Assembly: GCA_037576195.1 (NCBI GenBank)
Contig: CM075102.1
Location: 21,076,745 to 21,140,744, forward strand
Origin: Phytoseiulus persimilis
Lineage: Eukaryota > Arthropoda > Arachnida > Mesostigmata > Phytoseiidae
DNA length: 64,000 bases
Direction of reading: 5' to 3'
Below, piece after piece: positions 7,396-39,760 of this stretch. The position numbers were made by a program, and so were the translations under genes. Position 1 is the stretch's first letter. Every line of letters begins with the position of its first letter. A model generated the notes under the pieces. The model was not told the DNA's origin, made no database searches, and was given only the letters and a program-made list of their open reading frames with translations.

Positions 7396-7560
7396 GTGAC
7401 GACTTCCAGTCGATTGCCTCCAGTCCGCGAATCCACGTCCTGGAGAACGGCTCTCTGACCATTCTCTCGGTGGAGCGTTCTGATCAGGGCCAGTACATCT
7501 GCGAAGCGAGCAACACAGTGGGCCCATCGGCGACCGTCGCAATCGCACTGTCCGTTAAAT
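7396..7560 (+). CDS. Dscam: Dscam exon A: C-terminal half of Ig8-like domain
   Basis: This exon encodes 54 full codons between a good acceptor (TTCCTTTTCCAG) and a GTGAGT donor, phase 1 on both sides. It shows the closing half of an I-set Ig domain: a run reading VLENGSLTI, then a spaced D-Q-G-Q-Y-I-C with the second disulfide cysteine, then A-S-N-T-V-G. This matches the end of the Ig8 domain of fly and human Dscam, which precedes Ig9 and FN1, and the next exons supply exactly those. The partner half with the first cysteine is missing from the window. The domain would be extracellular. Confidence 0.9.
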
Positions 7561-23307: not shown

Positions 23308-23459
23308 GATCAGCATGGACGACCAGATGGTGACGGAGGACAAACTTGTGTCGAACCTGAAAATCGACCAAGTGAGAAAATCGGACTCGGGCGTTATAGA
23401 GTGCACAGTTACCAATCCGTACGGGAAAGAAAGTCTCCACACTCGCCTCATAGTACAAG
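23308..23459 (+). CDS. Dscam: Dscam exon C: C-terminal half of Ig9-like domain
   Basis: Phase 2 in and phase 1 out, from CATCTTTCCAG to GTGAGA, with 50 full codons. The reading ends the Ig domain begun in exon B: L-V-S-N-L-K-I-D followed by S-D-S-G-V-I-E-C with the second cysteine, then T-N-P-Y-G-K and a closing L-I-V-Q strand. Fly Dscam Ig9 has the same layout (S-S-L-S-I, R-S-D-S, C-x-A-T-N-x-F-G, M-I-V-Q). The tyrosine usual two residues before the cysteine is replaced by isoleucine, as it is by phenylalanine in fly and human Ig9. Confidence 0.92.
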
Positions 23460-24532: not shown

Positions 24533-24658
24533 ATAAGCCGGAGCCTCCAGCCAAACTCCGAGTTATAGAGGCGACATCGAGCTCCATCACTTTGCAGTGG
24601 GAAACCCCGCCTGACGGCAACAGTGTCATCAAGAGCTACGTCATCAGCTACCGTCAAG
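24533..24658 (+). CDS. Dscam: Dscam exon D: N-terminal half of first FN3 (FN1-like)
   Basis: Phase 1 on both sides, from ATCCTTGCAG to GTGAGT, with 41 full codons. It opens with D-K-P-E-P-P, the usual proline-rich link into an FN3 domain, then an S-S-S-I-T-L-Q-W strand with the first conserved tryptophan, P-P-D-G-N-S and a Y-V-I-S-Y-R strand. The D-G-N-S after the tryptophan is shared with the first FN3 domain of fly and human Dscam, and its position right after the Ig9-like domain agrees. Confidence 0.93.
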
Positions 24659-27795: not shown

Positions 27796-27987
27796 CTGAT
27801 TCAGCCACACCGGAGGAGTCTGTCCTATCTCAACATAGAGCGAGCTTCGTGTCCGACGACGGATCCCAGAGCGCAACAATAAAGAACCTTCTGCCGCGAA
27901 CAACTTACGAAATCTACGTCGCAGCCAGCAACGATATCGGCACGTCAAGGCCTTCGAAAACGGTTAACGTCACCACCAAAGTCGATC
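27796..27987 (+). CDS. Dscam: Dscam exon E: C-terminal half of first FN3 (FN1-like)
   Basis: Phase 1 on both sides, from TTCTCTCCAG to GTAAGT, with 63 full codons. It carries the second half of the FN3 fold: S-A-T-I-K-N-L-L-P-R-T-T-Y-E-I-Y-V-A-A-S, the hallmark leucine-proline-x-T-x-Y turn and strand, then N-D-I-G-T-S before the last strand. Fly Dscam FN1 reads L-S-P-A-T-T-Y-N-I-R-I-V-A-E-N-A-I-G-T-S at the same place. An acidic, serine-rich insertion precedes it. The domain is extracellular. Confidence 0.93.
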
Positions 27988-31471: not shown

Positions 31472-31542
31472 CCCCTCAGAAGCCGCCAAGAGACGTCGAA
31501 GTGATTCCCATGGGTTCATCGAAGTTCCGGGTCCGCTGGAGA
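31472..31542 (+). CDS. Dscam: Dscam exon F: start of second FN3 (FN2-like)
   Basis: A 71-base exon, phase 1 in and phase 0 out, between a long pyrimidine tract ending CTCTCGCAG and GTAAGT. It encodes P-P-Q-K-P-P-R-D-V-E-V then a strand ending F-R-V-R-W-R, so it supplies the proline link, first strand and first tryptophan of an FN3 domain. The x-P-x-x-V-x-V-x-P and R-V-x-W spacing fits FN2 of fly and human Dscam. It is separated by only 188 bases from exon G. Confidence 0.9.
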
Positions 31543-31730
31543 GTAAGTTGCTACATTCATTGTTTGGCGAAGGAATGGGGAGTGGACACAAAGAGATAAG
31601 CGCCGGACGCCCTCCATGCTTCCGTCGGCCGCTTTGTTTTTCCATTATTGGCATTGTCACGAATCGCTCTTTGGCGTCCGACTGCTAAACCTCGCACAAA
31701 CCCTTCTAACTCGAAACTCGTCCTTCGCAG

Positions 31731-31971
31731 CGTCCGGTCGACCCTCAGCTGGTCCCCATCGAGGGCTACTACGTCGGGTTCAGGGCCAACTCGGAATCCA
31801 TCTTCGCCTACAAAACCCATTCGTTGTTGAACCTCGTACCGCGTGACGTCGAGGAGTTTGTGATCCAAGGCCTCAACAAACGAACGAAGTACTGTGTGAT
31901 CTGCCAAGCCTACAACGAGCAGGGAAACGGGCCGTCTTCGAAAGAGGTCTGCGCGAGTACGTTCGAATACG
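31731..31971 (+). CDS. Dscam: Dscam exon G: rest of second FN3 (FN2-like)
   Basis: Phase 0 in and phase 1 out, from CGTCCTTCGCAG to GTAAGT, with 80 full codons. It has I-E-G-Y-Y-V-G-F-R, an F-A-Y-K-T strand, F-V-I-Q-G-L-N-K-R-T-K-Y and V-I-C-Q-A-Y-N-E-Q-G-N-G-P-S-S. The G-Y-Y-V-G-Y/F, F/Y-x-T and V-x-x-Q-A-F/Y-N-x-x-G-x-G-P-x-S series is the signature of Dscam FN2 in both fly and human, so this domain is assigned as FN2 and not FN3 or FN4. Two extra cysteines in the Y-C-V-I-C strand are unusual. Confidence 0.93.
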
Positions 31972-33013
31972 GTAAGTGTTCTTCACGCATCACGTAATGC
32001 GAGACGTTCCAGGGCTCACTCATCCACCGTACCAAACGCGATCACCGCAAACAAAACTAAGTAGATCTCGATCGACGGTGCGATTTTCGGTCGTTGTCCG
32101 TTGGCACTTGCGACGTTCGCGGTGTCGTGGTACGTTCCTCTCGACGCTCACGGAGTCGCGTCAAATGCTCGCCGATTCATTCGTCCGGGGACTTCACAAA
32201 ATACCTGCTCTAACTCATGTTCTCCGGGACTGTTTGCGAATCGGTGTGAAAGCCTTCCGCTGCTGAATTCTGCGGTGCGGTGGAAATGGAGAGAAAGGGG
32301 ATCGCGGCCGTTCAAGCAGTCGTTGAAGTAGCAGTAGTTGGTGCAGTGTTGCAGAGCATCAACGGCAGCTCTTTGAAAACGCTGCTGCAAAGACGTGCGG
32401 CCTCAGAGAAGCGCTAGGTCGCGTTGAAGAAAGCCTTATCTCATGGAGCGTTTAACACACACCCCCGTTCTCTCAGCCGCTTCCCCCCGTCTTGATTCAC
32501 CCGTGCTCCCCCACCCCCACTTGGTCCTCACCACACATACACCACATAGACACGAGTGGAGAATAAAGGAAGGAACGAACAAGAATCTACGAAGCGGGCC
32601 AGGTATCCTTTGTGGGGAACTCCAAGCTCCAAGACACGTCACGCTGTTCGCGCACGAAATTTTCCCTCAAGATTTAATACACTCCTTTAGCCGGAAACTC
32701 TTTCAAACACTTGAATACAGCGCCATTTGTCAGTAGATAGAGCAGCGGACTTAACGCTGCGTGAAGATACCTCTTACGTTTTAGTTTCGAGTGGGTGCAA
32801 GACTGGATCGACGATTAGCCGGGCGGATATCCCTGACGTGAGCGACCTACCCCGATAAAATGTCAGGGAATCCTCGGCTTACCTCCTCATGGTCCCAGCT
32901 CTCGATTGCCAAGGCTTGAGAAAGAGTGTGGGTGGGTGGGGGCGTCGTCGTCGTCGTATTGGTGGAGAGAGCGGGAAGAAATCCGTGTAACTAATGAATT
33001 ACGCTTCCCACAG
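31972..33013 (+). other. Intron at the FN2-FN5 junction, carries a tRNA-like SINE
   Basis: A 1.04-kb phase-1 intron from GTAAGT to CTTCCCACAG. In canonical Dscam, FN3, FN4 and Ig10 lie between the domains flanking this intron. Read in all frames, it contains no FN3 or Ig segment. It does carry a tRNA-Leu-like repeat near 32725-32915. Confidence 0.8.
32725..32915 (+). repeat. tRNA-Leu-like SINE candidate
   Basis: The 5' part resembles a tRNA with a long variable arm. It has an A-box-like CAGTAGATAGAGCAG near 32731-32745, a perfect 6-base hairpin GCAGCG/CGCTGC (32742-32760) around GACTTAA, a short hairpin at 32760-32778 where a leucine variable arm would lie, and a B-box-like AGTTTCGAGTGGG at 32783-32795. 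GGACTTAA is typical of tRNA-Leu(UAA). A tRNA-unrelated part follows with a CCCTGAC/GTCAGGG inverted pair at 32831-32837 and 32862-32868. The loops are too altered for a working tRNA. The right end is uncertain. Confidence 0.5.
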
Positions 33014-33292
33014 ATCCGCCGGAATCGCCTCGGCTGAAACTGATCTCGTCAACCGCTTCGTCCCTGCACGTGTCGTGGGAGGCCCGGAAGGGGGATATCG
33101 TCCAGGGCTACATCCTGCACTACAAACACGGGAACGGTGGATTCATCGAGGAGCGCCTGGGCCGTCAGCTCAACTCGAAGATGCTCACAGGACTACAATG
33201 TGGAACCACGTACACGATTTACCTGACGGCTCACAATGACGTCGGCCACAGCGAGCCAGGAGAGTTCCTCGAAGCCTCGACTAATGGAAAAC
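33014..33292 (+). CDS. Dscam: Dscam exon H: complete third FN3 (FN5-like)
   Basis: A whole FN3 domain in one exon, phase 1 on both sides, from CTTCCCACAG to GTATGT, with 92 full codons. It reads D-P-P-E-S-P-R-L, then S-S-L-H-V-S-W, G-Y-I-L-H-Y-K, G-L-Q-C-G-T-T-Y-T-I-Y and N-D-V-G-H-S-E before an A-S-T-N-G-K end. Fly Dscam FN5, the domain after Ig10, starts P-P-Q-S-P-H-V, has G-Y-T-L-H-Y-K and G-L-L-C-G-S-R-Y and ends T-K-G-Q-K. The cysteine in L-x-C-G is specific to this domain, so the assignment to FN5 is strong. Here it directly follows FN2. Confidence 0.95.
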
Positions 33293-34607: not shown

Positions 34608-34786
34608 CTCCGGCTGCGCCCCCGATGGAGGACATGGTGGATACGAACCAGACGACGTTGCGTATCTCGCTGACCAAATGGCGGGAGGCGGGCTGCCCGA
34701 TATTATTCTACGTCGTTCGCTACAAGCCCAGGGACTTCATTGGCGACTGGATCGTTTACTCGAACCATATTCCTCCTGAACAGCAG
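34608..34786 (+). CDS. Dscam: Dscam exon I: N-terminal half of fourth FN3 (FN6-like)
   Basis: Phase 1 in and phase 0 out, from CCCCGACCTCAG to GTAAGC, with 59 full codons. It has L-R-I-S-L-T-K-W, E-A-G-C-P-I, F-Y-V-V-R-Y and D-W-I-V-Y-S-N-H. The G-G-C-P-I/M motif, here A-G-C-P-I, followed by a W-x-x-x-S-N-N strand is the mark of Dscam FN6, the last domain before the membrane, in fly and human. The upstream frame stays open across the acceptor, so the exon start rests on the splice site and the phase match with exon H. Confidence 0.93.
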
Positions 34787-35618: not shown

Positions 35619-35801
35619 GTGGTCTTCATCACTGACCTGACGCCAGCTTCCTGGTACGATATGTCCGTGTCGGGATACAGCGAGGCCGGCCATTCAGAAG
35701 CGGCCTACCTCGTCGGAACTCTAACTCCGGACGGTCGTAGATTGCCACCTCCTCCCGAAAGGATTAAGGAAACTCCGCGAGGACCGCTGCAAGGCATGCA
35801 G
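35619..35801 (+). CDS. Dscam: Dscam exon J: end of FN6-like domain and juxtamembrane stalk
   Basis: Phase 0 on both sides, from CGCACTTTCAG to GTGAGT, with 61 codons. V-V-F-I-T-D-L-T-P-A-S-W-Y-D-M-S-V completes the FN6-like fold; the L-x-P-A-T/S-W-Y strand is shared with fly and human Dscam. G-H-S-E-A-A-Y and G-T-L-T close the last strand. A proline-rich, charged segment follows (residues about 552-578) and forms the short stalk to the membrane. The next exon supplies the membrane span in the same phase. Confidence 0.93.
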
Positions 35802-38935: not shown

Positions 38936-39050
38936 AACCAAGCCTGGCTGGTACCGATGATGTGTGTGATTGTTGCAATTGTGGTCATCATCGCAGTGAT
39001 TTCGGTACTGGTCCTATGGACGAGGAAACGTGAGCGTCTACAGGAGTTGT
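38936..39050 (+). CDS. Dscam: Dscam exon K: transmembrane segment
   Basis: Phase 0 in and phase 1 out, from CTCCCTTACAG to GTAAGT, with 38 full codons. After N-Q-A-W-L-V-P comes a run of about 20 hydrophobic residues rich in V and I, ending V-L-V-L-W, then a basic stop-transfer T-R-K-R-E-R. This makes it a single-pass type I anchor. A second possible donor in the same phase lies 22 bases upstream (GTGAGC at 39029). The downstream one is preferred because it gives a tyrosine at the junction, making Y-N-Q-T just inside the membrane, as in fly Dscam1. Confidence 0.93.
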
Positions 39051-39569: not shown

Positions 39570-39760
39570 ATAACCAAACGGACACCGGCAACTCGATGAC
39601 GTTGAAAACATACCCGAACATGGCCTGCAAGACGTCGACGTGCAGTCGTAACGGGGCCCTGGGTCAGGCATTTTATTACCCCGAGAGTTACTCCACCACG
39701 ACCAGGGGGTTCTATCCCAACAACGATCGACACACCTATGAGGATCCCTGCAAACTGAAG
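39570..39760 (+). CDS. Dscam: Dscam exon L: membrane-proximal cytoplasmic tail
   Basis: Phase 1 in and phase 0 out, with 63 full codons. It encodes the first part of the cytoplasmic tail: Y-N-Q-T at the membrane side, several cysteines, a Y-Y-P-E-S and F-Y-P-N-N region and T-Y-E-D-P near the end (tyrosine at about residue 673). Y-E-D-P resembles the p-Y-D-E-P type site bound by Nck-family SH2 domains, and fly Dscam signals through the Nck homologue Dock; the link here is inference. If the donor is not used, the frame ends at 39781 after eight more codons. Confidence 0.9.

Follow-up and report, generated by a model that had tools for sequence, protein, structure and literature searches.

The locus described here raises the question of whether a Dscam gene of Phytoseiulus persimilis lacks three domains of its outer part, FN3, FN4 and Ig10, such that FN2 is joined directly to FN5, and whether a gene of this kind is already known. 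The window (the whole stretch of DNA analysed, 64,000 nucleotides) lies on contig C2, positions 21076745-21140744, and the entire genome (181 Mb in 127 contigs) was searched for related genes. The evidence presented below indicates that the window gene is almost certainly a chelicerate mDscam, i.e., a single-span adhesion receptor composed of N-terminal Ig domains and FN1-FN2-FN5-FN6, without FN3, FN4 and Ig10.

Exon structure of the window gene

The gene is carried on the + strand, and exons were seen for the second halves of Ig8 and Ig9, for FN1, FN2, FN5 and FN6, for the membrane span and for a cytoplasmic segment. The features, in positions of the window, are as follows:

7396..7560, + strand: second half of Ig8; AG/GT borders; Ig profile match at 7446-7535, E 7.1e-13
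23308..23459, + strand: second half of Ig9; AG/GT borders; Ig profile match at 23351-23449, E 1.9e-11
24533..24658, + strand: FN1 exon 1, phase 1 to 1; from borders and frame; FN3 profile, 1.7e-11
27796..27987, + strand: FN1 exon 2, phase 1 to 1; from borders and frame; FN3 profile, 2.5e-12
31472..31542, + strand: FN2 exon 1, phase 1 to 0; from borders and frame; aligns with the start of FNIII2 in 7y8s
31731..31971, + strand: FN2 exon 2, phase 0 to 1; FN3 profile, 1.0e-17; contains GYYVGF and QAYNEQGNGPSS; best full-length match FN2
31972..33013, + strand: FN2-FN5 intron, 1,042 bases; the position at which full-length Dscam has FN3, FN4 and Ig10
33014..33292, + strand: FN5, single exon, phase 1 to 1; from borders and frame; FN3 profile, 1.3e-20
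34608..34786, + strand: FN6 exon 1, phase 1 to 0; from borders and frame; Pfam PF25059, DSCAM C-terminal FN3, E 3.7e-45
35619..35801, + strand: FN6 exon 2, phase 0 to 0; from borders, frame and Pfam
38936..39029, + strand: membrane-span exon, phase 0 to 1; from borders, frame and hydropathy
39570..39760, + strand: first cytoplasmic exon, phase 1 to 0; in frame, AG/GT; cytoplasmic by position only

From FN1 on, AG/GT is found at all borders of the nine exons and the phases are compatible, giving a single open frame with zero stops, 519 codons long if the incomplete first one is counted, which runs from FN1 through FN6 and the membrane span to the first cytoplasmic exon. The mean hydropathy of the span is 3.22 across 21 residues at 38957. 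A single membrane span and an in-frame exon downstream of it are as an mDscam requires.

The original prediction had treated FN2 (31472-31971) as one block; these coordinates are right, but the domain is divided between two exons by a 188-base intron located between 31542 and 31731. The FN5 exon had been placed correctly, and its borders are AG/GT. As had also been proposed, FN2 ends and FN5 starts in phase 1; FN5 ends in phase 1 as well. In the gene model, as derived from genomic sequence, the direct joining of FN2 to FN5 is confirmed.

The further claim, that the intron of about 1 kb carries no Ig or FN3 segment, was borne out. Inspection of its 1,042 bases by eye in six frames revealed no segment of FN3, FN4 or Ig10, and profile scans gave zero FN3 or Ig matches at E up to 1, by a method that can overlook very short exons (the 71-base first exon of FN2 is itself below the reach of the FN3 profile and was overlooked). 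The profiles were home-made, grown from the window's own domains (98 positions for FN3; 34 positions, the second half of the domain, for Ig), and were scanned on six-frame reading frames of at least 25 residues. Two full-length Dscam genes of this genome serve as a positive control, since in each of them the same profiles pick up FN3, FN4 and Ig10 after FN2 and before FN5. In the first (L004/L005) the scans yield, in order, FN1, FN2, the second half of FN3, FN4, Ig10, FN5 and FN6; in the second (L012 4417-7298 together with L027 2419-3625) they yield FN2, FN3, FN4, Ig10, FN5 and FN6. In both, the Ig domain that separates FN4 from FN5 was named Ig10 on the basis of position.

These scans also bear on whether the window gene might be a full-length Dscam, the FN3, FN4 and Ig10 exons of which are located elsewhere or were lost by misassembly. 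We consider this highly improbable: the intron is a continuous sequence with no such exon, no additional FN3 profile match occurs within the window itself, and no FN3-type match occurs across the 100 kb upstream of it (L017-L026). One upstream Ig exon (L022) has its highest score with Ig10, but it stands before Ig4. Moreover, six other genes of this genome share the domain order, and the shortened layout was described in 2016-2018 as normal in chelicerates in the available text of the two reports concerned (PMC5775551, PMC4835542).

Assignment of the FN domains

The four FN domains were scored against a full-length yardstick, consisting of 11 FN3 domains from the two full-length genes, named by their order with Ig10 as landmark. 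Domain 1 scores 34.0 bits with FN1 (next, FN4 at 26.9), domain 2 scores 40.1 and 37.5 bits with FN2 (best FN3 26.3, best FN4 13.2), domain 3 scores 37.6 and 25.1 bits with FN5 (best FN4 11.4, best FN3 7.0), and domain 4 scores 57.6 and 40.3 bits with FN6 (next, FN1 at 13.2). The best scores thus agree with the earlier naming of domain 2 as FN2 and domain 3 as FN5. When paralogues are included in the comparison, each of the four window domains again has its highest score with a domain of its own number. The assignment is least certain for domain 1, where FN5 of one paralogue (35.4 bits) exceeds the full-length FN1; the scores of domain 1 with four paralogue FN1 domains (41.5-49.1 bits) are higher still.

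Pfam recognizes four fn3 stretches (E 6.1e-54) in the translation from FN1 onward, and the best stretch for the DSCAM/DSCAML C-terminal FN3 model, residues 315-406, falls within FN6. In addition, FN1-FN2-FN5 match 7y8s, the structure of scorpion sDscam FNIII1-3, over residues 6-296 of 298 (E 3.3e-42), and these three scorpion domains are equated with FNIII1, 2 and 5 of Dscam1 in the available text of PMC10154414. The full-length scores, the DSCAM C-terminal Pfam model and the 7y8s match support, at the level of sequence comparison, a numbering of FN1-FN2-FN5-FN6 in which FN3, FN4 and Ig10 are missing.

A tree of 43 domains, the check that had been proposed for this numbering, gave a partial answer: the window domains are grouped by number and the placement of domain 3 with FN3 is rejected, but that of domain 2 with FN4 is not. 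The FN6 group (100/100) includes the FN6 of the window; FN2 and FN3 are united at 97/99, the FN3 pair at 98/96, the FN4 pair at 98/98, and the window FN5 joins its nearest paralogue at 98/90. Other parts of the tree are weak: only 7 of the 40 inner branches are starred, and the bootstrap is unsettled. Neither FN2 nor FN5 forms a single clade, and the FN5 rows m3 and m8 (m8_FN5 being partial) lie closer to the FN2+FN3 group on weakly supported branches. Names of the m and s rows follow the order of the domains in their locus. All domains of L013 are missing from the tree, as are FN1 of L006, L014, L015 and the second full-length gene, FN2 of L016 and FN6 of L010. In seven of the 11 FN2 rows the first half is largely missing. 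Where two half-domain exons meet, the join was set by eye, and a few residues there are unsure.

If domain 2 were FN3 or FN4, or domain 3 were FN3 or FN4, a different segment would be missing from the gene. AU tests leave some room for such placements (domain 2 with FN4, p 0.129; domain 2 with FN3, p 0.220; domain 3 with FN4, p 0.195), as they do for a single FN2 clade (p 0.326) and a single FN5 clade (p 0.329). Domain 3 with FN3 is rejected at p 0.008, a rough value, as are the others, since it stands at 0.053 or 0.008 depending on one residue of row m1_FN2. The four alternative placements cost 8.4 to 19.8 log-likelihood units, and the full-length scores favour FN2 for domain 2 and FN5 for domain 3. 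We regard a different missing segment as the least probable of the readings considered. The numbering FN1-FN2-FN5-FN6 is based on the scores and the Pfam model; the tree alone would not decide.

Related genes and upstream Ig domains

A protein search of the genome produced 53 matches, the window's included, and 12 other gene places, chosen by hand, were examined in detail. Half of these (L001/L002, L003, L006, L008/L009, L010 and L011) are FN1-FN2-FN5-FN6 by order, and no FN3-type or Ig match was found between FN2 and FN5 in these six mDscam-like genes. Two are the full-length genes described above, and the remaining four (L013 to L016) show FN1-FN2-FN5, with FN6 not in the stretch read, and are sDscam-like. 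The genome therefore holds both mDscam-like and sDscam-like genes, classes which are reported from chelicerates only, according to the available text of PMC5775551.

Three further groups of FN3 domains were observed. Eight FN3 matches are spread over 57 kb of the - strand at C3:33082958-33139817, perhaps a further adhesion gene or cluster. At C3:22734517-22749886, a segment of about 15 kb has four FN3 matches of near-equal score, distributed over both strands, which are perhaps recent duplicates. The + strand at C2:23169964-23189893 contains densely packed FN3 domains in long open frames, which by their look may be of the titin/twitchin kind.

Five Ig profile matches were detected in the 100 kb upstream of the window (L017, L018, L019, L020 and L022). 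When compared with seven full-length Ig domains, L020 scores highest with Ig4, L019 with Ig5 and L017 with Ig7, and L018, at the place expected for Ig6, scores 14.4 with Ig4 and 13.4 with Ig6. L022 precedes Ig4; its top score is with Ig10 (22.6), but Ig1-3 are absent from the seven domains compared, and by its place it is taken as Ig3. Within the window, exon 7396..7560 scores 33.7 bits with Ig8 (next, Ig10 at 23.6) and exon 23308..23459 scores 25.0 bits with Ig9 (next, Ig10 at 16.4). Ig4, Ig5, Ig7, Ig8 and Ig9 are thereby ordered along the + strand by score; no Ig1 or Ig2 was identified with the Ig profile within the 100 kb upstream. From the common strand and the right order, we infer that the upstream Ig exons are part of the same gene.

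The nearly end-to-end match of FN1-FN2-FN5 to scorpion sDscam FNIII1-3 would suit an alternative in which the window gene is an sDscam, the short type with Ig7-9 followed by FN1, FN2 and FN5, published as being without Ig1-6 and FNIII6 (PMC5775551, available text). The gene is set apart from sDscam, however, because exons matching Ig4 and Ig5 are found upstream on the same strand and FN6 is present, and we judge this assignment very unlikely. An mDscam remains the preferred reading.

Stalk contacts, origin and comparison with known Dscams

In the scorpion, the FN1-FN2-FN5 part of sDscam is described as L-shaped and forming a cis dimer, and this cis interaction was weaker when N357A, Y420A or Q485A was introduced (PMC10154414, available text). 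We mapped 11 named interface residues onto the 7y8s chain, where all 11 letters fit, and then onto the domains of this genome. Four of the 11 are kept in the window gene (N357, L358, P395 and E486), D578 is replaced by E, and Y420, Q485 and R404 are not kept. N357 is kept in three of eight FN1 domains, the window's included, and Q485 in one of 11 domains (L015). Y420, the central tyrosine of the cis dimer, occurs in none of 11 FN2 domains, two sDscam-like ones included, in a region (417-420) where the alignment is uncertain, since seven of the 11 rows start nearby, two are gapped at 417, and the window residue is P in this alignment versus Q in the HMMER alignment to 7y8s. It is thus conceivable, albeit rather unlikely in our estimation, that the shortened Dscams of this species keep the FN2-FN5 join and not the scorpion cis contacts, and that chelicerate lineages differ in same-cell pairing on a shared stalk.

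A phase-1 donor ends FN2 in all nine genes examined, and the FN5 acceptor is phase 1 in the five genes examined in this respect (the window gene, L002, L003, L006 and L011). That phase-1 borders would permit the loss of whole exons without a change of frame had been argued from the window, and these phases are confirmed there and in the other genes examined. The shared FN2 donors and FN5 acceptors fit an ancient loss of complete exons flanked by two phase-1 introns, which would have left the frame intact and may have preceded the multiplication of the mDscam genes. As in other Dscams, the Ig domains would be expected to mediate homophilic recognition at cell contacts, here presumably on a shorter membrane-proximal FN stalk, and the role of the receptor may be mainly in the nervous system. 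In the available text of PMC5775551, 14 of 17 scorpion mDscams are markedly higher in cephalothorax expression.

A published gene type, with reports from chelicerates only, was recovered here from raw sequence alone. With all three types of gene (full-length, mDscam-like and sDscam-like) in a single assembly, it may become easier to estimate when the three domains were lost and to compare the pairing of shortened stalks.

That shortened Dscams occur in chelicerates had been noted as known, and the exact order is in print: mDscam "lacks Ig10 and FNIII 3-4" (PMC5775551; layout also in PMC4835542). The domain order is itself already known, and the window gene is a copy of a known kind. As far as the available text of the 2018 survey of six chelicerates goes (PMC5775551), mDscam genes are more numerous than the other Dscam classes, none is reported outside Chelicerata, and the species covered include the mesostigmatan mite Metaseiulus occidentalis. 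Excerpts of other reports describe 19 Dscam-like genes in the 173 Mb genome of the phytoseiid mite Neoseiulus cucumeris (PMC6902594), large sets of Dscams in trombidid mites and, in a tick, Dscam homologues of non-canonical type (PMC6275457, PMC4244043).

The outer part of the window gene is three domains shorter than fly and human Dscam. It resembles the full-length genes of the same genome (LDscam; L004/L005 and L012/L027) in its domain types and in the phase-1 FN2 donor; unlike it, they carry FN3, FN4 and Ig10 between FN2 and FN5. With sDscam alpha/beta (7y8s etc.) it shares the direct FN2-FN5 join, and it differs from them in FN6 and in the upstream Ig4 and Ig5. With chelicerate mDscam it shares the absence of Ig10 and FNIII 3-4, the retention of FN1, FN2, FN5, FN6 and upstream Ig domains, and the occurrence of several such genes per genome, in a set of surveyed species that includes a mesostigmatan mite. 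Compared by description and from Ig4 onward, the window gene and the published mDscam show no difference among the features tested.
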